Assembly: GCA_937893735.1 (NCBI GenBank)
Contig: CALBGD010000057.1
Location: 1 to 25,080 of the forward strand
Length of the DNA: 25,080 bases
Direction of reading: 5' to 3'
Source of the DNA: an uncultured Clostridia bacterium
GTDB lineage: Bacteria; Bacillota; Clostridia; Oscillospirales; Ruminococcaceae
The translations under genes were made by a program, and so were the position numbers. Of this stretch, positions 3,968-24,255 are shown one piece after another (position 1 is the stretch's first letter; every line of letters starts with the position of its first letter). The notes under the pieces were generated by a model, which saw nothing but the letters and a program-made list of their open reading frames with translations, did no database searches and was not told where the DNA came from.

Positions 3968-5743
3968 TTAACCGCCGTTACGCTCCAGAAAGCGCTTTGC
4001 GAATTCCAGCATGGAGTTTCTTTCCTCTTCGGTGGTCTCGCCCGTGCGATCTATCTTGTCGCAGAGGTCGGGCATTTCCGCCGCCGCGGAATCCAGCAGC
4101 TCACGGCTGAACTGCGGTATCTTATCCACAGGGATATTCTGGAAAATGTGCCCCATAGCCGCTGTCAGCAGGATAACCTGCTCATGCTGCTTGTAGGGGT
4201 TATACTGCTTCTGGCGGAGCAGTCTCATAAGTCCCTGACCATAGCGGAGCTGCTTCTTGGTGGCTTCGTCAAGGTCGCTGGAGAACTGCATGAACACTTC
4301 CATCTCGCGGTACTGCGCGAGATCAAGACGGATAGCGCCGGTCGCCTTTTTCATCGCCTTTGTCTGTGCGGCGCCGCCTACACGGGAAACCGACAGACCT
4401 ACGTTTACCGCAGGGCGCTGACCGGAATGGAACAGGTCGCTTTCAAGGAATATCTGACCGTCCGTGATGGAGATTATGTTTGTAGGAATATACGCGGATA
4501 CGTCGCCCGCCTGAGTTTCTACTATCGGGAGCGCAGTCATGCTGCCGCCGCCGAGCGCGTCGGAAAGGTGCGCGGAACGCTCCAGCAGACGTGAATGCAG
4601 ATAGAATACGTCTCCCGGATAAGCCTCACGTCCCGGAGAACGCTCCAGCAGAAGGCTGAGTGTACGGTACGCGACTGCGTGCTTGGAAAGGTCGTCGTAA
4701 ACTATCAGAACGTCCTTTCCGTGGTTCATGAAGAACTCGCCCATTGCACAGCCGGAATACGGCGCGATGTACTGCAATGTCGCGGAATCACTGGCAGTGG
4801 CGTTCACGATTATCGTGTAATCCATAGCGCCGTGCTTGCGGAGGTTCTCTGCAAGCTGAGCGACTGAGGAAGCCTTCTGACCTATCGCAACGTAGATGCA
4901 GACGACTCCCTTGCCCTTCTGGTTCAGGATCGTATCAAGCGCGATTGCGGTCTTACCGGTCTGGCGGTCGCCGATTATCAGCTCACGCTGACCTCTGCCT
5001 ATCGGGAACATGGAGTCTATCGAAAGCAGACCAGTTTCCATAGGGCGGTTGACCGGCTGGCGGTCGATGATGCCGGGCGCGGGATTCTCAATAGGATAGT
5101 AGTCCTCCTGAGCTATTGGACCCTTTCCGTCGACCGGCTCGCCGAGGGCGTTGATGACGCGTCCCATAAACGCTTCGCCTACCGGGATACCAGCGACTTT
5201 CTTGGTGCGGCGGACTATGCTGCCCTCGGTTATCTCGCTTTCATCGCCGAAGATAACGCAGCCTATCTCGTCCTCCTTAAGGTCGAGTATCATGCCCTTT
5301 ATTCCGGATTCAAACAGCAGTATCTCGCCGTACTCGGCGTCCTCCAGTCCGCTGATGGTCGCAATGCCGTCGCCGACTGTCAGTACCGTGCCGACTTCCT
5401 CGTCCTTGGGAATGGGCTCGAAATCCTCGATAGCCTGACGTATCATCGGAAGAACGTCCTGCTTGCCGCGGATAGCCTCGGAGATGCTCTCCTTGAGCTG
5501 CTTTGCCCTGCCCTCGGCGCTCCAGTCGAATATGCGGTCAAGGTTCCACTTGTATGTGGAGGTGCCTATCTCAATGCGGAAGCCGTCGCGCACGCTGTCG
5601 TCCTGCTTCGGTATAACCGCAACGGCGGCACCGTACTTCTTTTCCAGAAAATCCTGAACCTTTTTAAGCTGTTCGTCCGTGGGAGTTTCACGGCTGTAAA
5701 TGAACGCTTCGACCTCGACTTTTCTGATCTCGTGTTCTGTCAT
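3968..5743 (-). CDS. atpA: F1 ATP synthase alpha subunit with delta-like N-terminal extension
   Basis: Residues from about 95 onward are a normal alpha subunit: '[18 protein letters not shown]', P-loop 'GDRQTGKT', the arginine-finger motif '[14 protein letters not shown]', and the C-terminal helical domain ending '[11 protein letters not shown]'. At 591 residues it is about 85-90 longer than usual. The extra N-terminus looks like the C-terminal domain of the delta/OSCP subunit: '[19 protein letters not shown]', a strand pair with '[13 protein letters not shown]', then a helix '[13 protein letters not shown]'. This follows delta's usual order (helix, G-x-V strand, D-S-x-x-GG-hairpin, final helix). 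No separate atpH lies in its normal place between atpF and atpA, which are 6 bases apart. The start ATG has AAAGGAG upstream overlapping the end of atpF. Alpha identity is certain; the delta origin of the extension is by pattern and absence of atpH. Confidence 0.93.
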
Positions 5744-8448: not shown

Positions 8449-9558
8449 TTATCCGCAGCAGTCGCTCATTTTGTGGGTCTCCGGGGTGGCGGAAAGGGAT
8501 TTGCTCTCATAAGCCACCTCTGCGAATTCGCCGTTTTCCACAGCGTAGCTGTCCGGAACTCCGTCAAAAAACTTGAATGAACGTCCCACAAGGGCGGAAA
8601 CATCGGTAGATTCCTTGAGCAGGCCGATGTTATGAAGATCAGTCGCAACATTCAGGAGTGCGTCGTAGCCGCCCTGAACGCTCGGAATGTACTCGTATCC
8701 CTTGAGTATCTCGGCATTTGCCGCAGCGTCTCCGCTGACATACTCGCCGTCTATCTGTATCTGAGCCGCTTCTTCTGGATTCTGCGCAACAAAAGCGGAG
8801 GCTTTCAGCACTGCCCTTGTGAAGGCTGCTGCTATATCCGGGTGCTTTTCCGCAAGCTCTGCGGATACGAAGCTAACGCAGCAGTACTCGCTCGCGTAGG
8901 GCTCGGTCACTGCTGTATCAAGCAGCACTTTCAGACCGTATTCATTCTCCGCGTTAGTGGCAACCGGGTCAGGAGTGGAGATAGCGTCGACCGCGCCGTT
9001 TATCAGGGCTACCGGCTGGTCTGTGGTGCTGTAAACCGCAAATGACACCTCGCCGGAATCCGCCGAAATATCGACACCTGCTGCGTTGAGAGCTCGCTTG
9101 GCAGTTATCGCCTCGGAGCTTGCAAGCGAGCTTACGCCGATGGTCTTTCCCTTTAAGTCTGCGAGGGACTCTATGCCGGAATCGGCACGGACAAGTATCT
9201 TGGTGCAGCCTGTGTGCATTCCGGAGGTTATTACCATGTTAAGCCCGTTTTCGATAGGCTGAACGAACTTTCCTACCAGACCGAATCCGCAGTCTATCAT
9301 TCCGGAGCCCAGCGCCGCCTGTATGTCGGAGCCGCCGAAATCCACGCGCTCCCACTTTATTCCCTCTTCGTCAAGGTAGCCCTTTTCCATTGCCACCTGA
9401 AGCGGAGCGTGGCAGAGCGCGCCCTGCACCTCGCCTACCTTAAGAGTATATGTATCGCTGTCCGGGCTTCCGCCGGAGCTTTCCTGCTGTGCGCAGGCTG
9501 TAAGTGAAACGGCAATTATAGCAGATATGGCTGCCGCAGCTATTTTTCTGAAATTCAT
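8449..9558 (-). CDS. ABC transporter substrate-binding lipoprotein (nitrate/sulfonate/taurine type)
   Basis: The N-terminus is a lipoprotein signal with lipobox L-T-A-C. The mature part is a type 2 periplasmic-binding fold of the NrtA/SsuA/TauA family: 'APLQVAMEKGYLDEEGI', 'GGSDIQAALGSGMIDCGFG', 'SLADLKGKTIGVSSLAS', 'LINGAVDAISTPDP', 'HPDIAAAFTRAVLKASAF'. Domain order is normal, unlike the second binding protein in this window. I start at 9558 (MNFRK), since the in-frame ATG at 9573 belongs to the ATGGAGG ribosome binding site; the product is 369 residues. It is unusually rich in Cys for a surface protein, including 'HTGC', 'SEYCC' and a C-terminal 'SDCCG'. The ligand is not determinable; a sulfur compound is suggested only by the leader peptide upstream of the operon. 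Confidence 0.88.
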   Translation of the reverse strand: MNFRKIAAAAISAIIAVSLTACAQQESSGGSPDSDTYTLKVGEVQGALCHAPLQVAMEKGYLDEEGIKWERVDFGGSDIQAALGSGMIDCGFGLVGKFVQPIENGLNMVITSGMHTGCTKILVRADSGIESLADLKGKTIGVSSLASSEAITAKRALNAAGVDISADSGEVSFAVYSTTDQPVALINGAVDAISTPDPVATNAENEYGLKVLLDTAVTEPYASEYCCVSFVSAELAEKHPDIAAAFTRAVLKASAFVAQNPEEAAQIQIDGEYVSGDAAANAEILKGYEYIPSVQGGYDALLNVATDLHNIGLLKESTDVSALVGRSFKFFDGVPDSYAVENGEFAEVAYESKSLSATPETHKMSDCCG

Positions 9559-9572
9559 TGTGTGATCCTCCA

Positions 9573-10352
9573 TTAAATCGTGTATTCAACTTCCTTTTCT
9601 CTGCCAGCGAAATCAAGCACCTTCAGTATCTCGCTTCTCAGGCGGATAAATTCAGGGTTGTTTCTGTCGCGGGGCTGGCTGAGATGTACCTCGAGTATTT
9701 CCTCTATCTTTGCCGGGCGCGGGGACATTACCACTATCTTGTTTGAAAGATAGACCGCCTCGTCCACATCGTGGGTCACCATCACCATGGTCATGTTCTG
9801 CTCAGACTTGATGCGCAGAAGTTCGTCCTGCATATTCATTCTGGTGAACGCGTCCAGCGCGCCGAGGGGCTCGTCAAGCAGCAGAGCTTTCGGGTGGCCG
9901 ATGAGCGCCCTTGCAAGGGAGGCTCTCTGGCACATTCCGCCGGAAAGCTGGTGCGGATATGACTTCTCAAAGCCGCTCAGCCCGACAAGCTCCATGAATT
10001 CCTTAACGGAATCCTTCTTCTGCTTGAAGATGTGCCTTGCCCTCAGCCCGAAGGAAATATTATCGTAGATATTCAGCCACGGGAACAGGTTCGGATCCTG
10101 AAAGACAAGTCCGCGGTCGTAATTCGGCTTGGTTATCTTCTCGCCGTCAAGGTAAACCGCTCCCTCTGTCGGCTGGTCAAGCCCCGCCAGAAGCCGGAGC
10201 ATGGTGGATTTTCCGCAGCCGGAGGGTCCTATCAGGCAGACGAAATCTCCCTGATGTATTTTCAGATCCACGCCGTTCAGCGCATGGACTATTTCTCCGT
10301 CCGGGCGCCGGAAGCTCTTTTTTACGCCTTTGAATTCTATTGCTCCTACCAT
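9573..10352 (-). CDS. ABC transporter ATP-binding protein (nitrate/sulfonate/taurine type)
   Basis: This 259-residue ATPase has all core motifs: Walker A 'GPSGCGKST', Q-loop 'LVFQDPNLFPW', signature 'LSGGMCQRASLARAL', Walker B 'ALLLDEPLGALD', and H-loop 'MVTHDVDEAVYLS'. It belongs to the SsuB/TauB/NrtD-like group and powers import with the permease encoded just before it. The start at 10352 has GGGAG seven bases upstream and overlaps the permease stop by seven bases, so translation is likely coupled. An in-frame GTG at 10373 would add seven residues but lacks a site. Its stop codon overlaps the ribosome binding region of the lipoprotein gene. Confidence 0.93.
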   Translation of the reverse strand: MVGAIEFKGVKKSFRRPDGEIVHALNGVDLKIHQGDFVCLIGPSGCGKSTMLRLLAGLDQPTEGAVYLDGEKITKPNYDRGLVFQDPNLFPWLNIYDNISFGLRARHIFKQKKDSVKEFMELVGLSGFEKSYPHQLSGGMCQRASLARALIGHPKALLLDEPLGALDAFTRMNMQDELLRIKSEQNMTMVMVTHDVDEAVYLSNKIVVMSPRPAKIEEILEVHLSQPRDRNNPEFIRLRSEILKVLDFAGREKEVEYTI

Positions 10353-11308
10353 TTGATGACTCCCTTCTGCCACAGCAGCACCTTGTCCCTCACCTTAAAC
10401 AGAATGGTGATAACGAGATAAAACAGCACTGCGATAACGATAAGCCCCGCGTAAACATTCGCGTAGCACATCATTTCCTTCTGCCAGTTGACATACCAGC
10501 CCATTCCGTATTTTGCGCCTATCATCTCCGCCGTCATCAGCGTTACGAACGAAGAGCAGATACCGTTGAACAGACCGAGGAATATGCTTGGCATTGCAGC
10601 GGGGACTCCCACCTTAAAAATACGCCAGAAGTGATTTGCGCCCAGCGTTGAAGCTACCTCGAAATAGGAATTCTTTACATTTGAGATACCGCTGGAAGTC
10701 AGCACGACCGTTGGGAACCACACGGATATTCCGATAATGAAAGCGCTCGCGGCCCTTGCGGTGGGGAATATCAGCAGGAATATCGGTATCCACGCCGTGG
10801 ACGGTATCGGACCCAGAATACGCACCAGCGGATTGATCCAGTAGCTGAGCGTCTTGCTGAACCCTATCCCGACGCCCATCAGGAAGCCGACAATCAGCCC
10901 TCCCAGAACGCCCGAAGCGAGTATTCCGGAGGAATATCCCACGCATTTCAGGATAAGCTCCCAGTCCTCGAAAAGCGTTCCGAACACCCGGTCGAGGGAG
11001 GGAAAATACAGGGTAGGCAGCAGCGCGGTCTTTACCGTGACGATGTTAAGGATATTCAGTACCAGAAGGACTCCGGCGAGAAACGGAGCTCTGTAAAACA
11101 GTCCGCCGTCATCGAATGACTTTTTATTTTTCAGGTGCAGAAGAAGCGCCGCTGCGAAATAAATAACGGTTATCGCGATTATCAGCCAAGCGAAATAAGG
11201 GTGCGCCGCCTTCTGGTGCTTATCAGAATCAGGTACCGCAACGGCGACTATCTCTGCGGCAGCGGCTGAAAGCAGCAGAAGTCCGGAGCGAAACAGGGTT
11301 TTATTCAT
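10346..11308 (-). CDS. ABC transporter permease (nitrate/sulfonate/taurine type)
   Basis: This is an integral membrane subunit with the EAA-type coupling loop 'EVASTLGANHFWRIFKVGVP' that docks the ATPase, and the preceding conserved 'PLVRILGPIPSTAWIPI'. At 320 residues it is longer than the usual 250-270. The surplus is an N-terminal pair of hydrophobic segments (residues about 5-27 and 38-58) before the canonical transmembrane core. It starts 18 bases after the DUF1847 gene with AAAGGAA upstream and its last codons overlap the ATPase start. A single permease gene suggests a homodimer. Confidence 0.92.
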   Translation of the reverse strand: MNKTLFRSGLLLLSAAAAEIVAVAVPDSDKHQKAAHPYFAWLIIAITVIYFAAALLLHLKNKKSFDDGGLFYRAPFLAGVLLVLNILNIVTVKTALLPTLYFPSLDRVFGTLFEDWELILKCVGYSSGILASGVLGGLIVGFLMGVGIGFSKTLSYWINPLVRILGPIPSTAWIPIFLLIFPTARAASAFIIGISVWFPTVVLTSSGISNVKNSYFEVASTLGANHFWRIFKVGVPAAMPSIFLGLFNGICSSFVTLMTAEMIGAKYGMGWYVNWQKEMMCYANVYAGLIVIAVLFYLVITILFKVRDKVLLWQKGVIKW

Positions 11309-11326
11309 TGTTTATTCCTTTCCGGC

Positions 11327-12022
11327 TCACTTTATGTTGCCTATGCTGAGCTTTGAATAGTCTATTTCCTCGCCGACAGGCGCAAGGAGCAGCTTTTTGT
11401 AATACGCTCTCGCCTGATACAGCGCGCCGACAGGATTATGCGCAAGCACTCTGTCCTTGGTGACGAGTGTAGTTGTTATGCCCTTTGCATACTTGTAGAA
11501 CAGACTGTCGTGACCTACGCACAGCCCAACAACGACATTCAGATCCACCTTTGCCTTGTTGAGGAGCTTTGCCTGCATGATGGGGTTGCACATTACCTTT
11601 CCGGTGACGCAGGTGTATTTTTCGTCTATCCCGATATCCGTCTTGTTAACTGAGCCGACCTTGCAGCCTACTCCGTAAACCTCGAAACCGTTCAGCTTCA
11701 GTATGCGGGCAAATATACGGCTTTCCTCGATAAGTCCCACGCAGGTCGCTATGCCTATCTTTTTTACGCCGATCTTGCGTGCGAACTCGATTATCTCCTC
11801 TACCCTTGTGTATTTCCCGTAGAACGCGCCCTCTACCTCTGCGGACGCCACCGCGATCTTACGGTTGGTACGGTTTTTTAAGTAGAGGTCTGTGACCTCG
11901 TTTATTTCCTCCTCTGTGAGGGCGGCGGTGGGGCAGAACTCAGGATATGTGCCGTTCCGCTTGGCGCAGTTTAGTACTCCGCAGTCGGTGCAGCTATGGC
12001 AGATGTTCTTGTTGTCAGACAT
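11327..12022 (-). CDS. DUF1847 family protein, Cys-rich, probably metal-binding
   Basis: This 231-residue protein has an N-terminal cysteine cluster (C8, C11, C14, C19, with C30 nearby: 'CHSCTDCGVLNC') and then a Rossmann-like domain with repeated Cys-Gly or Gly-Cys turns ('GIATCVGL', 'GVGCKVG', 'VVGLCVGHDSLF', 'HNPVGALYQARAYY'). This matches the DUF1847 family, which carries a predicted metal-binding annotation and has no proven function that I know. With about ten cysteines and no signal peptide it is a cytoplasmic candidate for metal or Fe-S binding. It is first in the ABC transporter operon, directly after the leader-terminator element. The start has TAGGAGG eight bases upstream, and that site begins within three bases of the end of the terminator's T-run. 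Confidence 0.85.
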   Translation of the reverse strand: MSDNKNICHSCTDCGVLNCAKRNGTYPEFCPTAALTEEEINEVTDLYLKNRTNRKIAVASAEVEGAFYGKYTRVEEIIEFARKIGVKKIGIATCVGLIEESRIFARILKLNGFEVYGVGCKVGSVNKTDIGIDEKYTCVTGKVMCNPIMQAKLLNKAKVDLNVVVGLCVGHDSLFYKYAKGITTTLVTKDRVLAHNPVGALYQARAYYKKLLLAPVGEEIDYSKLSIGNIK

Positions 12023-14533: not shown

Positions 14534-14947
14534 TTATTTATTAGACTGCTGAGGTGCGCGGCGGCAGTTCTCCAGAAGGTTTATGAGCTGAGAAATCGGA
14601 ACGAAGAACGCTTCCTCGCTGTCGTCCTCCATCTCAATGACCATCAGCGCCTTTGTGCCCCAGTCGTTCACCGTTATCCGGCGGATAGTGGAGCCCTTGT
14701 CAGTCTTGGTGTTGATCGACTTCAGCAGGTCGTTCATGCGGACGAATCCATGTATCCTGCCGCTGCTGCTTGTCCGGAATGACAGCTTCTTTGCGAGGGG
14801 TCTTTCGATGTCGATTATTACCCTGATCTCCGTTATCCCGCCGGGCATTTCAGCCTCCGTGCGATGCACCGTGCGGAACAGCTTTGCCGGAATGTAGTCC
14901 TCCAGCTTGACCGTCGGCACGTCTGCGTAATGCTCTGAATTAGCCAT
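14534..14947 (-). CDS. Hypothetical protein, last gene of pyrimidine operon
   Basis: This 137-residue protein is not recognised. It is soluble-looking with no signal or membrane segment, has mixed alternating hydrophobic/charged strands ('TEIRVIIDIERPL', 'TIRRITVNDWGTKALMVIEM', 'EEAFFVPISQLINLL') and no cysteine apart from one near the end. It starts 18 bases after the aminotransferase gene with AAGGAAGG upstream and ends at the operon terminator, so it is co-transcribed with pyrimidine breakdown genes. A role in that pathway or its control is only an inference from position. Confidence 0.75.
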   Translation of the reverse strand: MANSEHYADVPTVKLEDYIPAKLFRTVHRTEAEMPGGITEIRVIIDIERPLAKKLSFRTSSSGRIHGFVRMNDLLKSINTKTDKGSTIRRITVNDWGTKALMVIEMEDDSEEAFFVPISQLINLLENCRRAPQQSNK

Positions 14948-14965: not shown

Positions 14966-16288
14966 TTAAAGAGTTGCGTCTACCTCGGCGAGGACTTCGT
15001 CTACCTTCACCATTTCCTCGCGGAGCTGCTCCGGAGTGATGATGAGCGGCGGGCATACAAGTATCATGTTCTCATGGGAGTAGGTCATGAATTTCTTCGC
15101 CTTGAGCTTTCCGATGATACCGCCCATCACGCCGAGCTTGTCGCCGCCGTAGGGCACCAGGGGCTCCCTTGTTTCCTTGTCCTTGACCAGCTCGATAGCG
15201 GAGAACAGACCGATGTAGCGCACATCGCCCACGCACTTGTGCTTAGCCTTGAGCTCCTCGAGTATCTCGCCGAGCACCTTGCCGCTCTTGTTTACGTTGT
15301 CGAGGATATTGCTGTCCTTGTAGTAGTTCAGGCAGGCAACTCCGGCTGCGCAGGCAAGCGGGTGTCCGCTGTATGTAAGTCCGCACTGGAGCACGTTGTC
15401 ATCGAAGTAATCCGCAATCTTCTTGCTGACTGCAACGCCGCCTAGCTGTACATAGCCGCAGGTAACTCCCTTTGCGAAGCTTACGATATCAGGCTTTACG
15501 CCGAAGTTTTCAAAGGCGAACATCTTTCCGGTGCGTCCGAAGCCTGCCATGACCTCGTCGCATATCATCATGATGCCGAACTCGTCGCAGATTTTGCGCA
15601 CGCCTGCGAGGTAGCCCTCCGGCGGGATAATGATACCGTTGGAACCTGTAATTGTTTCCATTACGATCGCTGCTACGGTGTCTGGTCCCTCATAAATAAC
15701 CTGCTCGCGGAGCTTATTTACATAATACTCACTGTACTCCTTCTCGCTTGCGAACGGAAGATTATCGCGGTACATATACGGGTCGAAGAACTTCACGAAG
15801 CCGGGGATTCCGGGCTCGAGGGGATATCTTCTCGGCTCACCGGTCAGGTTGCCTGCGCCGAATGTGGAACCGTGGTAGCTCCTGTAACGGGAGAACACCT
15901 TTTTCCTGCCGGTGTACATTCTCGCCATCTTGATGGCGTTTTCGTTTGCGTCGGCGCCGCCGTTGGTGAAGAACACCTTGGCGATGTTGTCCGGCATGAG
16001 GTCTACGACCATTTCAGCGAGCTTGGAACGGCTCTCGCAGGCGTAGCTGGGGCCTACGAAGCAGAACTTCTCAGCCTGCTCCTTGATGGCGTCGATTATG
16101 GGGCGGCAGCCGAAGCCTACGTTCAGGTTAACGAGCTGGCTGGACATATCGGTGTAGCGGTTTCCGTCGTAATCCCAAAAGTAAATGCCCTCGCCGCGCT
16201 CCACGGGAATAGGGTTCAGACCGCCCTGCTTTGACCATGACTGTAAATTGTACTTGGTGTGGTTGGTTTTGATCTCAGTTGCATTCAT
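14966..16288 (-). CDS. Class III PLP-dependent aminotransferase, probable beta-alanine aminotransferase
   Basis: This 440-residue enzyme has the class III (omega-aminotransferase) fold. Visible are 'FFTNGGADANENAIKMARMYTG' near the PLP phosphate site, 'YRSYHGSTFGAGNLTG', 'ICDEVMAGFGRTGKMFAFE' with the PLP-binding Asp, and the Schiff-base Lys in 'VSFAKGVTCGYVQLGGVAVS'. Placed after dihydropyrimidine dehydrogenase and dihydropyrimidinase genes, it most likely transfers the amino group of beta-alanine or beta-aminoisobutyrate to a keto acid, giving malonate semialdehyde or its methyl form. The substrate is inferred from context. The start at 16288 has GGAGG upstream inside the 3' end of the regulator gene, a 14-base overlap that suggests translational coupling. 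Confidence 0.9.
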   Translation of the reverse strand: MNATEIKTNHTKYNLQSWSKQGGLNPIPVERGEGIYFWDYDGNRYTDMSSQLVNLNVGFGCRPIIDAIKEQAEKFCFVGPSYACESRSKLAEMVVDLMPDNIAKVFFTNGGADANENAIKMARMYTGRKKVFSRYRSYHGSTFGAGNLTGEPRRYPLEPGIPGFVKFFDPYMYRDNLPFASEKEYSEYYVNKLREQVIYEGPDTVAAIVMETITGSNGIIIPPEGYLAGVRKICDEFGIMMICDEVMAGFGRTGKMFAFENFGVKPDIVSFAKGVTCGYVQLGGVAVSKKIADYFDDNVLQCGLTYSGHPLACAAGVACLNYYKDSNILDNVNKSGKVLGEILEELKAKHKCVGDVRYIGLFSAIELVKDKETREPLVPYGGDKLGVMGGIIGKLKAKKFMTYSHENMILVCPPLIITPEQLREEMVKVDEVLAEVDATL

Positions 16289-17486
16289 AAGAATCGTCCT
16301 CCATTATCAGCTTTGAGTTTTCCATATTGAGCAGTTCCTTTGCCCGGAAAGCCAGAAGCAGATTCATTTTATCCTCGTCGCTGAAGCTGCTGTCAAGAAG
16401 CTCGCGTATCTGTTTCAGCTTGTAGTTCACCGTGTTCCGGTGAACGCCGAAGATATCCGCGACCTCCTTAACGCTGCAATCGTTCTCGAAGTAGCAGCGC
16501 AGCAGCTCAGCGCAGTCGGTGTTGTTCTTGGCGTCGTAGTCAAGCAGCTTCCCGAGGGTGCTGTCAACGTAATCCGAGAGGATACGCGAGCTCTCCACGC
16601 CGAAAAGCAGCTTGTAAACGCCGATGTCGTGATAGTGCATGACCGTGGCTTTTTTCATTGCCGCAAGCCTCATTGCAGAGACCGCCTCATGATAGCAGGA
16701 ATGTATCCCATCATAGCCAAGTCCGTTGTCCGAAATGCCGATGTGCACTCCCACCGGCTCGGTGTAGTTTTCAGTGACAGCCGCCGCAAGCTGCTCGGCG
16801 AGCTTTCCCGCTTCCTGTGCGGAAAAATGCTGCCGGACTATCACCAGATAGTTCTCCTGAATGAAAATACAGGAGGGATACTGCGTGCTGGCGCATATTT
16901 TCCTCACAAGGAATCTCATGCTGCGCCATTCATCGCCGCTGCCGGGCTTGTCCGGGTGGGAAAGCTCCGCGGCGAGAAGCGTGTAGCCGCTCACATCGTG
17001 GAATCCGCGGCGCTCCAGCACCGGCGCGTAGCCGTCCCGCTGGCCGGGCGAGAAGAACAGGTTCCGGAACGCCCCGGCAAGACTCGTCTCACTTTCTTCG
17101 TTGCTGACTATCCTGTGACAGAAATCGTAGGTCAGGTCGATGAGCCGCACTGACCACGGGACCACGAAAAGCGGCAGCGCACTGCGCTCGCAGTATTCCG
17201 CGACCTCCCTCGGGACGGCGTTTATGTACGGACCGATGTTCACAACGATTCCGGCAGCGTTCCTTTCTTTCAGATGATGTGCAAAATCAAGGAGCCAGTC
17301 GTTTCCCTTATGTCCGATACCGGTAGTAAATACCAGCTCGTTTCCATGCATGAAGTCCGGCACCTCGCTGTCCTCAACGATATGCACCCAGCGGACGTAG
17401 TTCTCCATTCCCGCCTTTCCGGCGATGAGCTTCATGCCGTAGGTCTTTTCGGCGTTCGCACATATTCTTGCAAGAGTGATAGCCAT
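16275..17486 (-). CDS. PucR-family transcriptional regulator
   Basis: This 403-residue protein has the PucR architecture: an N-terminal purine-catabolism-regulator domain ('GMKLIAGKAGMENYVRWVHI', 'ELVFTTGIG', 'AAGIVVNIGPYI', 'LPLFVVPW'), a middle GGDEF-like region, and a C-terminal helix-turn-helix ('CSVKEVADIFGVHRNTVNYKLKQI', roughly residues 343-366). PucR relatives activate nucleobase catabolism operons in response to the base or an intermediate. Its place inside the pyrimidine operon suggests self-regulation and control of the upstream promoter near 24390. I start at ATG 17486, six bases after GGAGG, rather than the GTG at 17492. It lies 19 bases after the dehydrogenase gene. Confidence 0.92.
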   Translation of the reverse strand: MAITLARICANAEKTYGMKLIAGKAGMENYVRWVHIVEDSEVPDFMHGNELVFTTGIGHKGNDWLLDFAHHLKERNAAGIVVNIGPYINAVPREVAEYCERSALPLFVVPWSVRLIDLTYDFCHRIVSNEESETSLAGAFRNLFFSPGQRDGYAPVLERRGFHDVSGYTLLAAELSHPDKPGSGDEWRSMRFLVRKICASTQYPSCIFIQENYLVIVRQHFSAQEAGKLAEQLAAAVTENYTEPVGVHIGISDNGLGYDGIHSCYHEAVSAMRLAAMKKATVMHYHDIGVYKLLFGVESSRILSDYVDSTLGKLLDYDAKNNTDCAELLRCYFENDCSVKEVADIFGVHRNTVNYKLKQIRELLDSSFSDEDKMNLLLAFRAKELLNMENSKLIMEDDSYECN

Positions 17487-17505
17487 AAACACCCTCCTTT
17501 CGGAT

Positions 17506-18990
17506 TTATCTTCCGGGCTTCTTCACCCGGCGGCTGTGGGATATCGAACCCGTCGGACAGACGAGGGTACAAAGCAGGCAGCCGACGCATTTTCCCCCGG
17601 AAAGGCGCGGCTTTCTGTCCTCGCCCATGACTATTGCCTGATGTCCGCCGTCCATGCAGGAAATGTAACATCTTCCGCAGCCTGCGCAGCTTTCCTTGTC
17701 AAATATCGGGTAAACCACGGTGCTTCTGTCCAGATCGTCTGCCGGGACTACGTTGTTGAGCGCTGTTCCTGTGAGCTCGCTCAGCTTTGCCATGCCCTTT
17801 GATTTAAGATACGCTTTCGTCCCTGTGATAAGGTCGTCGATTATGCGGTATCCGTACTGCATTACCGCCGTGGTTATCTGGATATTCGTGCAGCCAAGCG
17901 CGATGAATTCCAGCGCGTCGTGCCAGCTTTCGATTCCCCCGATACCGCTCAGCGGCATTCCGGAAAGCTCCGGGCAGACCGCCATATCGTGAATGAACCG
18001 CAGCGCTATCGGCTTTACAGCCTTTCCGGAATACCCGGATACCGAGCACTTTCCGTTTACGCTCGGACAGGACACCATCGTGTCAAGATCGATACGCGTC
18101 AGGCTCTTTACCGTGTTTATCGCGGCTATTCCGTCAGCGCCGCCCTCTTTCGCGGCTATCGCGGGGACCTCCATGTTGCCGATGTTCGGGGTCATTTTCG
18201 CCAGCACCGGGAGCTTCGTCCCGCGCTTTGCCGCGGCGGTGTAGGCCCTCACAAGCTCCGGATCCTGCCCGACTTCGCTGCCGAGCCCCTCCCCCACCAT
18301 CTGCGGGCAGGAGAAGTTGCACTCGATGATGTCGCAGCCTGCCTCCTCGCTGAGCCTTGCAAGCTCCGTCCATTCCTCCTCGGTGCTGCCCATGATGGAG
18401 GAAACGATCACCTTTGTCGGGAAATCCTGCTTCAATCTCCGCAGTATCTCCAGATTCTCCTTCAGCGGATGGTCGGAAATCTGCTCCAGGTTCTTGAAGC
18501 CCACGAACGGCGTGCTTTCCTTGCCTATCGCGTCAAATCTCGGGGAGACCTCGTCCGGCTTTATAAAGCCTATCGTCTTGTAGACGATACCGCCCCAGCC
18601 GGCTTTCAGCGCGTTGGCGCACATCTCGTAGCCGCTTGCCACCACCGACGACGACAGGAAGAACGGATTCTCGCACTTAACGCCGCAGAATTCCATCGAA
18701 AGGTCCGCGGAAAGCCCCTCAGCCCTTACCGCCTCCGGAGCCGCTGCCGCCATCTCGCGAATTTTCACGGGGAAATCGTAGTGCAGGCAGGCTTTCTCGC
18801 ATTCGCCGGAGCACTCTGCGCATTTGGCGGCTTCGATGTACCCGGCTCCCACGGCGGGATTCTCGAACCTGACAGCCCTTACGAACCGCGCCGGGTCGAA
18901 GCCCTCCGGGCACGCCGCCGTGCAAGGGGCGTCAGAGCACAGCATACACCGCGCCGATTCATTGTTTAAGATTAGATTTCCGTATTTCAT
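17506..18990 (-). CDS. preA: Dihydropyrimidine dehydrogenase, PreA-type, with extra N-terminal Fe-S domain
   Basis: The central domain (residues about 100-410) is a dihydroorotate-dehydrogenase-like FMN barrel with the PreA patterns 'ECNFSCPQM', '[11 protein letters not shown]', '[10 protein letters not shown]', 'AAINTVKSL' and '[16 protein letters not shown]'. The C-terminus has two ferredoxin-type clusters ('[15 protein letters not shown]' and '[14 protein letters not shown]'). It reduces uracil or thymine to the dihydro base. In addition, residues about 15-80 carry eight more cysteines ('[14 protein letters not shown]' and '[12 protein letters not shown]') like the N-terminal domain of animal DPD and PreT. 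The FAD/NAD(P)H domain that normally links them is missing and no preT lies nearby, so the electron donor may be ferredoxin. The start at 18990 has AGGAGG eight bases upstream; a GTG at 19008 is upstream of that site's best spacing. Length 494 residues versus about 410 for E. coli PreA. Confidence 0.9.
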
Positions 18991-19017
18991 GCTGATAACC
19001 TCCTGCACGAGTAGATT

Positions 19018-20379
19018 TTATTTTGCCTTATGCTTTGCGCACTTGACGAACTTGCCCCAGCCGCGCTTGCCGACGAACTCGCCGTTGTCGAACACCAGCT
19101 TACCTCTGGAGTAGGTCTGCACGGGATAGCCGTGGACCTCGATTCCCTCCCAGATGGTGTGGTCGCAGTCGGAGTGCATATTTTCCTGATGGATAGTGAA
19201 ATTCTTCGATGGGTCGTAGATAACGATATCCGCGTCCTTGCCGGGAGCTATCTCGCCCTTTTCGGTGCATCCGAAGATCTTCGCCGGATTCGTGGAGCAG
19301 AGCTCGACAGCCTTTTCGAAGCTGATAACGCCGTCGTTCGCTTTACCGAGCATATACGGGTACATATTCTCAATACCCGCGCAGCCGTTCGGGATCTTGC
19401 GGAAGTCGCTCAGACCCCAGTCCTTTTCGCTCTGCTGGAACGGACAGTGGTCGGTGGCGATGGTGTCGATATCGCCGCGCTTTATCGCCTCCCAGATAGC
19501 GTCCTGGGATTCCTTGCCCTTCATAGGCGGCGAGCATACGAAGTTCCTGCCGTCCTCGCGCTTGTAAACGTCGCTGGTGAATTCAAGGTACTGCGGGCAG
19601 GTCTCCGCGTAGATCTCCAGTCCCTCGTCCTTAGCCTTTGTGACCGCCTCGACTCCCTGTTTGTTCGCAAGGTGAACTATGTACAGCGGAGCCTTTGCAG
19701 CCCTCGCAAGATTTATAGCGCGCTCGTCCGCTTCGCCCTCGACGAACTCCGGACGGCTCATATAGTGATACCATGCGCTGGTCTTGCCCTCGCTGATGTA
19801 TTTCTCGGTGAGGGTGTTCACAAGCTCGTTGTTCTCAGCGTGCACCGCGATAAGCGCGCCGAACTCCTTGGACTTCGCCAGAAGCTGGTAGAACACGCCG
19901 TCCTTTACGCCGAAATCATACACCATGAACACCTTGTAGGAGGTGATACCGATATCGCACGCATCCTTGATGCTGTCCAGCAGCTCGCCGTGGATATCCT
20001 TTACGCCGATGTGGAACGAATAATCCACCGCCGCGTCGGGAGCCGCGAGGGCGTTCCGGCGCTCAAAGGTCTGGGTCATCGTCTCGTTGAAATCCTGAAG
20101 CGCGAAATCAAAAACGGTCGTTGTTCCGCCGCAGGCAGCCGCCCTTGTTCCCGCGAAATAATCGTCCGAGGACACCGTGCCTCCGAACGGCATTGCCAGG
20201 TGAGTATGCGCGTCTATCGCCCCGGGGAGCACCAGCTTTCCTGCCGCGTCAACTACCTTTGCGCCGGGCATATCAGGAATACTGCCGACAGCGGCGATTT
20301 TTCCATCCTTGACCGCAACGTCAGCCCTGAAGGAACCGGTCGCGTTCACGACTGTGCCGTTCCTGATGATCATATCCAT
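19018..20379 (-). CDS. Dihydropyrimidinase / hydantoinase
   Basis: This 453-residue amidohydrolase opens the dihydropyrimidine ring to an N-carbamoyl-beta-amino acid. The binuclear metal ligands are visible: 'GAIDAHTHLAMPFGG' (HxH), the carbamylated Lys in 'GITSYKVFMVYD', His in 'IAVHAENNELV' and 'LYIVHLANKQG', and Asp in 'DTIATDHCPF'. Length and order match bacterial dihydropyrimidinases and D-hydantoinases. The start is ATG 20379 with GAGGAGG seven bases upstream; a longer reading frame reaching 20619 would overlap the previous gene and has no support. It follows the binding-protein gene after a 175-base gap with hairpins and precedes the dehydrogenase gene by 27 bases. Context favours dihydrouracil/dihydrothymine over hydantoin. 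Confidence 0.93.
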   Translation of the reverse strand: MDMIIRNGTVVNATGSFRADVAVKDGKIAAVGSIPDMPGAKVVDAAGKLVLPGAIDAHTHLAMPFGGTVSSDDYFAGTRAAACGGTTTVFDFALQDFNETMTQTFERRNALAAPDAAVDYSFHIGVKDIHGELLDSIKDACDIGITSYKVFMVYDFGVKDGVFYQLLAKSKEFGALIAVHAENNELVNTLTEKYISEGKTSAWYHYMSRPEFVEGEADERAINLARAAKAPLYIVHLANKQGVEAVTKAKDEGLEIYAETCPQYLEFTSDVYKREDGRNFVCSPPMKGKESQDAIWEAIKRGDIDTIATDHCPFQQSEKDWGLSDFRKIPNGCAGIENMYPYMLGKANDGVISFEKAVELCSTNPAKIFGCTEKGEIAPGKDADIVIYDPSKNFTIHQENMHSDCDHTIWEGIEVHGYPVQTYSRGKLVFDNGEFVGKRGWGKFVKCAKHKAK

Positions 20380-20414
20380 AAGAAAACCTCCTCGTATAAT
20401 GTTGGCAAATTCAC

Positions 20415-20554: not shown

Positions 20555-21739
20555 TCAGCCGCCGTAGTTGGAGTTCTTGTAAACGAGTACCAGACCGGAT
20601 CTCTGATATACCTGAGCAACCTCCAGAAGATCCATGCCGCCCGCGTTGGCGTTGATGAGGTTGGAGACCCATGTTACGCCGAAATCTACTGTGCCGTTGT
20701 AGACCGCTGTGGTCTCGGAGATATCACCGCCGCCGGAGATGATGTCGACCGTAAGACCTACTTCGTCGTAGTAGCCCTTAGCCTGCGCTACATAATAGCC
20801 CATGAACTGAGCCTGCGGCAGCCATTTGAGCTGTACGGAAACGGAGGTCTTTTCGGGAGCGCCGTCCGTTTCGGGGTCGTAGGTGAGATAATCAGTGCTG
20901 CGGATATCGTCCAGCGTGAGGGAAGCCAGCTTGTCCTTGGCTGTGCTGTCCTCCAGAATGATGTACTGCTTTGCAAGGTCGAGGGTCTGCTGCATTGCGG
21001 CTTCGTCCATGTTTCCTACGTCAGCGGCTGAAACCGTATTGCCGTTCATGTCGGTGGTTACAAGCTTTGCCACCTCGGAAGCCATATACGCCTGATGCTC
21101 GGCGGATACGGAGGAGCCTGCCTCGAATACTATCTCAGCCGCCTCGTCCGGGTGCTCGCAGGCATAAGCCCAGCCCTTCATTGAAGCGGAAACGAACGCC
21201 TTTACAGTGTTCGGGTTAGCCTCTGCGAATGCCTTGGAGGTGAACAGGTTGTCCTCCAGCATTGCAACGCCCTCGTCGTTCATATCAATAATGCTTACGG
21301 AATCTCCGTAGCCGTAGCCGCCGTCATAGTCGTTCTTTACCAGACCGAGCTCGTTGTATGTCATTGCAGAGGCCAGCTTTACGCTGTCGCTGTCGAACTG
21401 GTCCATCGTGAAATCCATGGTGATATAGTCAGTGGGAAGTCCGTACTTTGTCAGCAGCGCCTGGATCTCATACTCGTTGCCGAGGCCCCAGTTTCCTATT
21501 GTGCCCTCAGCTGCGGCGGACTTGATGATATCCTCGTGGCTCATTGCGCCAGTGGATTCCGCTGCGGAGCTCTCCTCAGCCGCGGAGCTGCTTTCTTCTG
21601 CTGCCGAAGTGCTTCCAGCAGAACTGACGGAAGCCGTGCTCCCGGTGCTGGAGGTCCCTCCGGAACATGCGGTAAACTGCATGCAAGCCATTATCGCTGC
21701 AACTCCTGCAAGTAAAAATCTCTTTCTTTCTGCTTTCAT
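20555..21739 (-). CDS. NMT1/THI5-like ABC substrate-binding lipoprotein, apparently circularly permuted
   Basis: This 394-residue lipoprotein has a signal peptide with lipobox F-T-A-C (Cys25) and a ~38-residue Ser/Ala/Glu-rich linker. The binding domain then begins in the middle of the usual family order: 'GNWGLGNEYEIQALLTKYGL' (from residue 82), 'ASAMTYNE', 'IDMNDEGVAMLED', 'FVSASMKGWAYACEHPDEAA', 'ASEVAKLV'. After a short linker (about 286-297) comes the segment that normally opens the protein, 'VSVQLKWLPQAQFMGYYVAQ' and 'AKGYYDEVGLTVDIISGGG', and the protein ends at 'SGLVLVYKNSNYGG'. In relatives that last segment precedes the GNWG part. The frame is intact from signal to stop. With the ATPase, permeases and pyrimidine enzymes it probably binds a pyrimidine or related ring. 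Confidence 0.88.
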   Translation of the reverse strand: MKAERKRFLLAGVAAIMACMQFTACSGGTSSTGSTASVSSAGSTSAAEESSSAAEESSAAESTGAMSHEDIIKSAAAEGTIGNWGLGNEYEIQALLTKYGLPTDYITMDFTMDQFDSDSVKLASAMTYNELGLVKNDYDGGYGYGDSVSIIDMNDEGVAMLEDNLFTSKAFAEANPNTVKAFVSASMKGWAYACEHPDEAAEIVFEAGSSVSAEHQAYMASEVAKLVTTDMNGNTVSAADVGNMDEAAMQQTLDLAKQYIILEDSTAKDKLASLTLDDIRSTDYLTYDPETDGAPEKTSVSVQLKWLPQAQFMGYYVAQAKGYYDEVGLTVDIISGGGDISETTAVYNGTVDFGVTWVSNLINANAGGMDLLEVAQVYQRSGLVLVYKNSNYGG

Positions 21740-21789: not shown

Positions 21790-22590
21790 TTATGCCTTTC
21801 TCCGCTTAAGCACCATTCTTTCAACCAGCATAAGAACGATGTACATTCCTATGCCTATCGCGCACGCCGTCGCGATGTAAGCCCACGCCGTGGGGTACTG
21901 ACCCTTTACGATATTCTCGCGTATCTGGCGGCCTACGCCTACCGTATCCTCCGCGAAGTACTCTGTTACCAGCGCGCCGATAACGCTCGCCGGAACGCTG
22001 ACCCTCAGCGCCGTGAAAACATACGGCAGTGAGTTCGGCAGACGAAGCTTCGTGAACACCACGATCTTCGGAGCCGCGTAGGAGGTCATCAGATCCTCGG
22101 AGAACGGCTTCAGCTCGGTCAGCCCGCGGAATGCGTTAACGCTCATCGCCGCCGTGCAGGATATCGTGACCACGATTATCTTGGCAAGCGTGCTTCTTAC
22201 GGAAACGTCCGTGCTGACGTCGCGCGTCCAGTTGTTTATTACCGGGGCGAGAGCCACTATCGGTATCGCGTTGAACGCAGAAACTATCGTAAGTCCGCCG
22301 GCGCCCCATTTCCGGAATATCGAAGCAACAACGGCTATCAGGTATCCGAGGATACTGCCCGCCGCGAGTCCTCCCAGGGCGACTATCAGGGTCATCTGAA
22401 CCTGGCTTCCGATGCTGTCCCTGTTCTGTGAGATTATCTCTCCGATACGCGTGGGAAGCGGAAGCGTTATCGTATCGGTTCCAAGCCATGAATGAAGCAC
22501 CTGAGTCTGCCACAGGACGAATATCACTACTCCGAAAAGAAGCGGAAGTCCTGCGCTTGACAGAATCCCAAGCCATTTCTTTGTTTTCAT
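21790..22590 (-). CDS. ABC transporter permease (second of two), pyrimidine-type operon
   Basis: This 266-residue BPD-type inner membrane subunit has about six helices and the EAA-like coupling region 'DLMTSYAAPKIVVFTKLRLP'. Other typical pieces are 'AFNAIPIVALAPVI' and 'VPASVIGALVTEYF'. It belongs to the SsuC/ThiX-like group. It starts 11 bases after the other permease with GAGGAGGG upstream, so the two likely form a heterodimer. The next gene, for the binding protein, is 50 bases downstream. Confidence 0.92.
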   Translation of the reverse strand: MKTKKWLGILSSAGLPLLFGVVIFVLWQTQVLHSWLGTDTITLPLPTRIGEIISQNRDSIGSQVQMTLIVALGGLAAGSILGYLIAVVASIFRKWGAGGLTIVSAFNAIPIVALAPVINNWTRDVSTDVSVRSTLAKIIVVTISCTAAMSVNAFRGLTELKPFSEDLMTSYAAPKIVVFTKLRLPNSLPYVFTALRVSVPASVIGALVTEYFAEDTVGVGRQIRENIVKGQYPTAWAYIATACAIGIGMYIVLMLVERMVLKRRKA

Positions 22591-22601
22591 GATATCCCTC
22601 C

Positions 22602-23453
22602 TCAGTTCCCAGATTTATTGCGCTTGTACGGGCAGAGCAGCCTTTCGATAAGCCCCATCAGCACGAAGCTCAGAATTCCTATGACTGCGCTTATCAGCAC
22701 GATGTCCCAGAACACCAGACGGGTCATTCCGCCTTTAAGGGACTGCGAAAGCATACAGCCAAGCCCGTTGCCGCCCTGGAGCGTATCCACCAGTATCGAA
22801 GCGGTTATCGCCATCGGCGCGGATATCTTCAGTCCGGTGAAGAAATACGGGATACACGCCGGAATAAGCGTCTTTGTGTAAAGCTGGAACTTATTCGCCG
22901 CGTAGCTGTACATCAGTTCGTGCTTCTCTTTCTCGACCGAGCGGAAGCCCGCCAGCACGTTCGTTGACACCGGATAGAAAGTGAGTATAGCCGCGATAAC
23001 TATTCTTGCGGAGTTGATATCTCCGGTTATCGAAAGGATTATCGGCGCCATACCGAGTATCGGTATCATCTGAATTATCATCAGATACGGGAACGCTATC
23101 TTCTCGACCACCCTTGAAAGATTCATCAGCAGAGCCAGTATGTAGCCCGCCGCGATTCCGGCAAGGAATCCGATTCCCGCGCGGGAAAGCGTTTCGCCGC
23201 AGGCGGTGCCGATAAGCTCTATCATCGTCATCTTTCCGGTGACCTTTTTGTCGCTGAAAAACGAACCAATTATCTCGTACAGGTGCGGCAGGACGTTCAC
23301 CGGAGTGCGCTTTGTCGCCGCAACTATACAGGCGAATATCTCCCAGATGACCACTATTCCGAGTATCCATACCAGCGTCACCATGTGTTTTGAATGTACG
23401 AAGCGCTTAAGAACCGGAAGGGGGCCTCTTCGCGCTGTTTTTGCCGTTGTCAT
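22602..23453 (-). CDS. ABC transporter permease (first of two), pyrimidine-type operon
   Basis: This 283-residue membrane subunit of the SsuC/ThiX-like group carries the coupling loop 'ELMYSYAANKFQLYTKTLIP' and the preceding 'IIQMIPILGMAPIILSI'. It has about six helices plus a basic cytoplasmic N-terminus. It lies 12 bases after the ATPase gene with GGAGGG upstream. Two permease genes rather than one mark this transporter as different from the single-permease system at 10346-11308. Confidence 0.92.
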   Translation of the reverse strand: MTTAKTARRGPLPVLKRFVHSKHMVTLVWILGIVVIWEIFACIVAATKRTPVNVLPHLYEIIGSFFSDKKVTGKMTMIELIGTACGETLSRAGIGFLAGIAAGYILALLMNLSRVVEKIAFPYLMIIQMIPILGMAPIILSITGDINSARIVIAAILTFYPVSTNVLAGFRSVEKEKHELMYSYAANKFQLYTKTLIPACIPYFFTGLKISAPMAITASILVDTLQGGNGLGCMLSQSLKGGMTRLVFWDIVLISAVIGILSFVLMGLIERLLCPYKRNKSGN

Positions 23454-23465
23454 GCCGTTCCCTCC

Positions 23466-24242
23466 TCAAACTCCCTCGAAGCTGTTTCTTACCTTTGCGA
23501 CAAGCTCTGTGAAATGCTGGGTGTCCGTCATATCCAGCGTCCGGGGTCTCGGCAGGTCGATATCGACTACCGCTGAAAGCCGCCCCGGGTGCGGTGAAAG
23601 CACGCATACGCGGTCGGAAAGAAACACGCTCTCGGAAATGTTGTGCGTTACGAAAATTACCGTCTTGTTGGTCTTACGCCATATCTTCAGCAGGTCGATG
23701 TGGAGCTTTTCACGGGTGAATTCGTCCAGCGCCGAGAACGGCTCGTCCATCAGGAGTATCTCCGGGCGTATCGCCAGCGCCCTTGCGATCCCGACTCTCT
23801 GCTGCATGCCGCCGGAAAGCTGATTCGGATAGTGGTTTGCGAAATTTGTCAGCCCCACCATCTCCAGCATACTGTCCGCGATGTCCTCGCGCTCGTCCTT
23901 GGGGACGTGCATTATCTCCAGCGGGAGCATTACGTTCCGGCGGACTGTGCGCCAGTCGTAGAGCACCGGGCTCTGGAATACTATGCCGTACCTCTGCGCC
24001 AGCCGCGCTTCCCTTGGGGTCACTCCGCCGACCGTTATCTTTCCGGAGGTCGGGTGGAGCAGGTCCGCGATGATTCTAAGGAGCGTTGTCTTGCCGCAGC
24101 CCGAGGGACCGAGCAGCGAGATGAACTCGCCCTTTTTGATGTCCAGCGTTACATTGGTGAGCGCCGTTACATCATTTCCGCCCTGATCCTTGTACACCAT
24201 GCCGATGCTGTCCAGCATGATCTCTGTTTTCTCGTTTGCCAT
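23466..24242 (-). CDS. ABC transporter ATP-binding protein, pyrimidine-type operon
   Basis: This 258-residue ATPase has Walker A 'GPSGCGKTT', Q-loop 'IVFQSPVLYDW', signature 'LSGGMQQRVGIARAL', Walker B 'ILLMDEPFSALD' and H-loop 'FVTHNISESVFLSD'. It groups with the SsuB/ThiZ-type importers. It is the first gene of the transporter-pyrimidine operon. The start at 24242 has AAGGAG eight bases upstream; a GTG at 24251 would overlap that site. The ribosome binding site sits directly after the T-rich tail of a leader hairpin, so expression may depend on whether that hairpin forms. Confidence 0.93.
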   Translation of the reverse strand: MANEKTEIMLDSIGMVYKDQGGNDVTALTNVTLDIKKGEFISLLGPSGCGKTTLLRIIADLLHPTSGKITVGGVTPREARLAQRYGIVFQSPVLYDWRTVRRNVMLPLEIMHVPKDEREDIADSMLEMVGLTNFANHYPNQLSGGMQQRVGIARALAIRPEILLMDEPFSALDEFTREKLHIDLLKIWRKTNKTVIFVTHNISESVFLSDRVCVLSPHPGRLSAVVDIDLPRPRTLDMTDTQHFTELVAKVRNSFEGV

Positions 24243-24255
24243 ATCGATCACTCCT

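Follow-up and report, generated by a model that had tools for sequence, protein, structure and literature searches.

A circularly permuted NMT1/THI5-like substrate-binding lipoprotein in a pyrimidine-degradation operon of Clostridia

A stretch of 25,080 nucleotides from an uncultured Clostridia bacterium of the Ruminococcaceae (contig CALBGD010000057.1 of assembly GCA_937893735.1; the whole stretch is referred to below as the window) carries, at 20555-21739 on the (-) strand, a gene with an ATG start and an open frame that encodes a lipoprotein of 394 residues. In this lipoprotein, the NMT1/THI5-like substrate-binding fold (PF09084) is circularly permuted. Its lipobox, together with the genes for permeases and an ATPase that lie beside its own, mark it as the substrate-binding lipoprotein of an ATP-binding cassette (ABC) importer. 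Very probably, it is a natural permutant that serves the importer of an operon for reductive pyrimidine degradation and goes back to a single event in one ancestral gene, in Clostridia or close to them.

Reversed order of the two segments

The Pfam NMT1 profile (PF09084) matches the lipoprotein with 107.9 bits, against a curated cut-off of 20.5, but the match is split into two stretches. The better of these, residues 310-390, corresponds to profile positions 2-82 of 216, and the later part of the profile precedes it in the protein. A normal profile order, which would have spoken against the original prediction of a permuted fold, was not found. In the PDB sequence search, chain residues 7-73 of 4nmy_A match residues 299-366 of the lipoprotein while chain residues 109-256 match residues 78-221, and 3ix1 is also matched by both pieces. 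As the matches to 4nmy and to Pfam NMT1 both run backwards, the order of the segments is reversed, and because the linear order of the profile is not the normal one, we class the protein as a permuted branch of PF09084 and not as an ordinary member.

When aligned separately, the two pieces likewise occur in reverse order in the normal-order relative from Syntrophobotulus glycolicus (protein P0121, locus L164). BLAST E values of 1.8e-37 and 9e-32 for the two pieces exclude a chance similarity, and the identities are 44% and 56%, the higher value belonging to residues 297-388. A profile-profile alignment pairs residues 79-290 with residues 147-347 of a 348-residue normal-order relative (probability 100, E 2.4e-52), and homology to the normal C-terminus thus extends through residue 290, which corresponds to the very end of the relative.

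We also performed a rotation test, in which the core was aligned globally to normal-order proteins either unrotated or rotated, with a shuffled sequence as baseline. Against P0157 from Anoxybacterium hadale, the score rose from 275.5 to 647.5 on rotation at residues 288-293, compared to a mean of -28 (standard deviation 15) for the shuffled sequence. The score rose from 217 to 578 against P0121, with the best point at 276 or 294-299 (within 3 points), and from 227 to 571.5 against L165, with the best point at 286-291. A normal-order control, L165 against P0157, gained only 3 points (886.5 to 889.5), and the gain was near zero (111.5 to 118.5) for the other NMT1 protein of the window, encoded at 8449-9573.

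GTDB contigs were scanned; this returned 202 related stretches, the best 80 of which were kept as loci. The locus and database sets overlap and hold nearest relatives only. Rotation improved the score by 326-389 in 78 of 78 members with the anchor motif; three of the 81 (80 loci and the window) lack this motif and were omitted (L024, L052 and L060), and the order of their BLAST pieces shows that all three are permuted. By that same measure the order is permuted in 81 of 81 and normal in all 50 proteins chosen for comparison. Similarly, the best 120 database relatives of the window protein are permuted without exception (120/120), and the best 120 relatives of the S. glycolicus protein all have the normal order (120/120). 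The Pfam, 4nmy, profile-profile and rotation results agree with the earlier proposal of moved termini, the old N-terminal segment now being C-terminal, and relatives of the same order, sought as suggested there, exist in many genomes.

Domain layout and position of the cut

The gene can be divided into seven parts, listed here from the start codon.

21665..21739, (-) strand: residues 1-25, signal peptide and lipobox with Cys25; lipid anchor assigned by motif
21545..21664, (-) strand: residues 26-65, Ser/Ala/Glu-rich flexible tether with low predicted local distance difference test (pLDDT) values, variable among relatives
21500..21544, (-) strand: residues 66-80, new N-terminal helix (model helix 68-77; N-termini compared side by side)
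20870..21499, (-) strand: residues 81-290, second part of the normal-order NMT1/THI5-like protein, reaching the old C-terminus
20852..20869, (-) strand: residues 291-296, new linker between the former C-terminus and the former N-terminus (profile-profile alignment, conservation, rotation points)
20576..20851, (-) strand: residues 297-388, first part of the normal-order protein, from 'VQLKW' to the 'SGLVLVYK' strand
20555..20575, (-) strand: residues 389-394 and stop, new C-terminus (family tails of 1-12 residues)

Cys25 is conserved at a level of at least 90% across 62 aligned family members. The AlphaFold model has a helix at residues 6-19, in the signal peptide region, and pLDDT values below 50 at residues 19-37, 44-50 and 52-63. 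The three segments from which the permutation had been deduced are present in the domain where they had been placed, GNWGLGNEYEIQALL at residues 82-96, VSVQLKWLPQAQFMGYYVAQ at residues 300-319 and SGLVLVYKNSNYGG at residues 381-394. A linker does join the old ends, as had been proposed, although its extent is shorter than the residues 286-297 originally given: because homology runs to residue 290, and because E296-K297, invariant in the 62 aligned members, lies opposite the 'DK' that precedes the first strand in normal-order proteins, we place it at about residues 291-296, a length of about six residues.

At the cut site, normal-order proteins read '..LLLVSK-TSKGI-NSPADLKGKKVGSW..'. Permuted proteins end a few residues past '..LVLVYK' and start with the helix '..SHEDIIKSAAAEGTIGNW..', residues 66-80 of the lipoprotein, which occupies the place of '..SPADLKGK' in normal-order proteins. 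The alignments thus locate the new ends in the loop that links the 'SGLVLVYK' strand to the 'SPADLKGK' helix. As far as can be judged from sequence, the domain is complete and has no duplicated parts, the cut being confined to one loop.

Predicted structure

AlphaFold produced a confident model of the permuted protein (pLDDT 86.7, predicted template modelling score (pTM) 0.81), comparable to that of the normal-order P0121 (pLDDT 89.1, pTM 0.83). The two models contain the same elements in cyclically shifted order. A Foldseek search with the normal-order model returned 4nmy (E 2e-23) and 3ix1 (E 8e-21), and structures of this type share 17-22% identity with the modelled relative. When the permuted model was used, no NMT1/THI5 entry was among the best 50 matches listed; the search instead matched OpuAC (E 1.4e-6). 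Searches that depend on chain order split or miss permuted proteins, a practical pitfall that the Foldseek listing illustrates.

Operon context and ligand

The neighbouring genes are listed below together with the number of permuted loci that contain a relative. These counts refer to the retrieved stretches, some of which are cut by contig ends.

24713..25080, (-) strand: M20-family Zn-dependent amidohydrolase, C-terminal part (PF01546); 65 of 80
23466..24251, (-) strand: ABC ATPase (best NCBIfam match SaoA/taurine-type, below cut-off); 77 of 80
22602..23453, (-) strand: ABC permease A (BPD_transp_1); 77 of 80
21790..22590, (-) strand: ABC permease B (BPD_transp_1); 78 of 80
19018..20397, (-) strand: HydA, dihydropyrimidinase (TIGR02033, 492 bits against a cut-off of 393); 75 of 80
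17506..19008, (-) strand: PreA, dihydropyrimidine dehydrogenase subunit (NF006183, 571.8 bits against a cut-off of 335); 70 of 80
16275..17492, (-) strand: PucR-type regulator (PF07905, HTH_30); 57 of 80
14966..16288, (-) strand: class-III aminotransferase (PF00202); 62 of 80

The genes thus run from the ATPase through permease A, permease B and the binding protein to HydA, PreA, the PucR regulator and the aminotransferase, with the M20 amidohydrolase upstream and running off the end of the window. The latter has a frame that is open to that end and shares 86% identity with residues 300-420 of a 420-residue relative in locus L206; this enzyme is likely an N-carbamoyl-beta-alanine amidohydrolase, and the aminotransferase likely acts on beta-alanine or a similar compound. 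PreA is a protein of 500 residues whose N-terminal Fer4_20-like part scores 24.6 bits, just below the Pfam cut-off of 25.8, and exceeds that cut-off in L164. No PreT partner was found among the open reading frames (ORFs) of the window that were scanned against Pfam. In several spirochaete loci, the HydA and PreA relatives lie on the opposite strand and are merely 41-45% identical.

Normal-order orthologues occur in comparable surroundings. Their neighbourhoods contain preA and/or hydA on five plasmids (two from Deinococcus and one each from Sinorhizobium, Klebsiella and Thalassospira; 5 of the 52 plasmid records with a match were examined) and in loci L164 (Syntrophobotulus), L203 and L165-L170, and the orthologue of genome G908 likewise stands in similar gene company. 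The more distant Clostridial normal-order loci L204, L205 and L207 have no preA or hydA relative within the stretch examined. We infer that the ligand of the permuted protein would belong to the same class as that of the normal-order form, a pyrimidine base or reduced pyrimidine, and that the mechanism of trapping and delivery would be the same.

It is improbable that the permuted protein no longer is the binding protein of the importer and acts instead on another ligand, as a sensor or scavenger. A changed role could account for the long stem branch of the binding protein, whose ratio of stem to crown is 3.4, the permeases having ratios of 2.5 and 1.7 (each from a single quick tree), and genome G976 has both permuted and normal-order genes. 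However, in 78 of 80 loci the binding protein gene has a permease relative on its own strand no more than 400 bases away (the exceptions being L021 and L056), and 55 positions are kept in both forms, being identical in at least 95% of the permuted proteins and in all six normal-order proteins compared. In G976 (loci L205 and L206), apparently a metagenome-assembled genome (MAG) in which contamination is possible, the permuted gene accompanies the pyrimidine operon and the normal-order relative has its own ABC genes.

In the gut bacterium Anaerostipes hadrus, preA and hydA together with preT have been credited with the inactivation of 5-fluorouracil, according to the accessible part of the report (PMC11036815). 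The operon described here carries preA and hydA, and its importer could therefore bear on the inactivation of this drug.

Three further features of the window were observed. A small conserved ORF of 137 residues (14534-14947) has no Pfam match, and a relative is present in 14 of the 80 permuted loci. A second ABC system spans 8449-12022 and comprises an NMT1-family binding protein (8449-9573), an ATPase (9573-10373), a permease (10346-11308) and a DUF1847 protein (11327-12022); its binding protein has the normal order, with residues 55-269 matching profile positions 4-216. An ORF of the ATP synthase alpha type (3968-5743, 591 residues) has an OSCP (delta) match at residues 8-86 and is possibly a delta-alpha fusion.

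Origin of the permuted form

For the main tree, both pieces were brought into one register in 91 rows, which represent the window and half (40) of the 80 permuted loci, together with 40 of the 120 normal-order database proteins and 10 others. The 41 permuted rows form one clade with a support of 100 on a long branch (1.41), and this clade stands beside the 40 rows related to the S. glycolicus protein, of which those identified by name are of the Clostridia type. Trees were also calculated for each piece alone, with one outgroup row lacking a piece. Permuted rows group with Clostridial normal-order proteins in the quick tree of the C piece (90 columns, support 86) and in that of the N piece (186 columns, support 92). 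As both pieces group with the same Clostridial normal-order proteins, both share descent with members of the NMT1/THI5-like family, and the permutation looks like one event inside one gene.

Acquisition of the C-terminal piece from a different binding-protein gene would fit the unequal identities of the two pieces to L164 (44% versus 56%). We nevertheless regard it as quite unlikely, since the permuted clade joins the same Clostridial normal-order groups in both of the separate trees and no part of the domain appears to be missing or doubled.

A tree of the partner ABC genes was built from every third of the 73 permuted loci that have all three genes, the window, and all normal-order loci but that of Klebsiella (13 of 14). 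The 26 permuted-locus rows again form a single clade with a support of 100, and the operon therefore looks like an old, cohesive unit. The seven spirochaete loci call for three changes on the best permuted tree, which points to their acquisition by transfer from Clostridia; well supported branches alone force only one change.

Our preferred explanation is therefore a single permutation event within one ancestral gene, which would have taken place in or near Clostridia. The ~92 residues that used to open the mature domain, from strand 1 to the 'SGLVLVYK' strand, now follow the old C-terminus via a linker of about six residues, and the new N-terminus, with its signal peptide, lipobox Cys and tether, lies at the loop beyond the 'SGLVLVYK' strand. 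Duplication and fusion are the usual route to circular permutation, and here the route was probably a tandem duplication with fusion, after which the outer parts would have been lost. From the topology of Type II binding proteins, we take the new termini to lie on the second lobe with both crossovers between the lobes retained, so that the lipid anchor would have shifted from the first lobe to the second. The two-lobed trap would still close around a ligand of the pyrimidine type, be it uracil, thymine or a dihydro derivative, and deliver it to the two permeases.

Distribution among relatives

The 80 loci comprise 70 from Bacillota, seven from Spirochaetota, two without phylum and one from Pseudomonadota, a label that stems from the odd name 'uncultured eubacterium 1-6'. 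The swapped-halves lipoprotein occurs in many gut-type anaerobic bacteria. Genome samples were each drawn around one centre genome; they partly overlap, and for many genomes only some of the first-look candidates were scored. The phylum sample around Ruminococcus bromii G003 (398 genomes) holds the permuted form in two genomes, the centre included, and related normal-order proteins in seven at an E value of 1e-15. In the class sample around G003 (391 genomes), both permuted pieces are present in six genomes, again with the centre, plus one in which a contig end interrupts the gene; four genomes have close normal-order proteins (53-73% identity to P0157), G976 being the one with both forms, and 20 of the 30 matching genomes had weaker matches only and were left outside the classification. 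The phylum sample around the Treponema-labelled G009 (198 genomes) holds the permuted form in one genome, the centre itself. No match was found in the phage records searched at an E value of 1e-5. Short ORFs of 127, 159 and 192 residues (G006:C5:609103-609390, G010:C1:4906931-4907215 and 4876304-4876633) contain one half of the NMT1 profile only and are possibly split or decayed binding proteins.

On present data, these relatives refute the reading that the original prediction had set against its own, namely a damaged tandem in which the C-terminal ~97 residues open a second, truncated binding domain. The 'VQLKW' segment normally opens the domain, and a cut second copy would look alike. However, all 120 database relatives listed end six residues after '.YK', and the 70 locus proteins with all three strict motifs end 1-12 residues past this strand; the 11 of 81 set aside for lack of one motif, inspected singly, also stop a few residues past its end. 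Furthermore, in 81 proteins the best match to the 'VQLKW' piece follows the other piece, and thus no member was seen with a complete domain lacking the C-terminal piece. A misassembly, frameshift or gene-calling artefact, conceivable because many relatives are MAGs, is refuted by the same order and open frame in many records including the isolates Ruminococcus bromii, Anaerocolumna sp. AGMB13025 (complete genome), Sporobacter termitidis and Eubacterium oxidoreducens; the original prediction had argued against a frameshift from the clean frame.

Comparison with known binding proteins

ThiY (3ix1), 4nmy and fungal THI5/NMT1 belong to the same Pfam family as the window protein but have the normal order; by their PDB titles, 3ix1 and 4nmy are linked to the binding or synthesis of thiamin or hydroxymethylpyrimidine (HMP), 4nmy being a thiamin-binding protein of C. 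difficile. Permuted binding proteins of other families are already known. TpMglB-2 (Tp0684, 'Cluster Bc') of Treponema pallidum is, in the accessible part of its description, a natural permutant lipoprotein in which about the first 100 residues have moved to the C-terminus and a fourth crossover between the lobes has been added; such permutants occur in spirochaetes and Gram-positive bacteria, and its authors considered an origin of the moved part from another gene (PMC4990184). It thus resembles the lipoprotein described here in being a natural permutant from similar taxa, but has a Type I glucose/galactose-binding fold of another family, and no member of that family was among the Pfam matches or the nine PDB sequences matched at E values up to 1. 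OpuAC of Bacillus subtilis (2b4l/2b4m), which is circularly permuted relative to ProX according to the accessible text of PMC2395249, belongs to the betaine-binding family, unlike the window protein. As Pfam OpuAC does not match the window protein at E values up to 1, the two share a similar topology only, which does not imply kinship. In the part of an OpuA paper available as text (PMC2861598), 'permut', 'swap' and 'dislocat' do not occur. No permuted NMT1/THI5 protein was reported in the titles and abstract openings of the literature matches listed, which came from open-access sources with subscription journals mostly absent; the permuted form of this family is therefore new as far as these matches show, which is no proof of absence.

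It is tempting, though doubtful, to regard circular permutation as a recurrent and selected solution in the tethered binding proteins of Clostridia and spirochaetes. The anchor would move to the other lobe, here, in TpMglB-2 and perhaps in OpuAC, which might relieve strain on the lobe formerly held and change docking on the two-permease importer.

The closest counterparts are the Clostridial normal-order proteins from S. glycolicus (P0121/L164) and A. hadale (P0157), which have a lipobox motif and the same order of ABC genes as the permuted loci. L164 and L203 share a median identity of ~48% with the permuted proteins over the common core, and have preA and hydA as neighbours. They differ in that the two segments stand in the opposite order, with the anchor and termini elsewhere in the fold. 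Whereas the two earlier cases considered here span remote proteins (OpuAC and ProX; TpMglB-2 and MglB), here both forms are close, are both found in Clostridia, and lie beside related permeases and enzymes. They thus provide a clean before-and-after pair, well suited for asking whether folding, lobe closure and docking to the permeases depend on where the termini and the lipid anchor lie.
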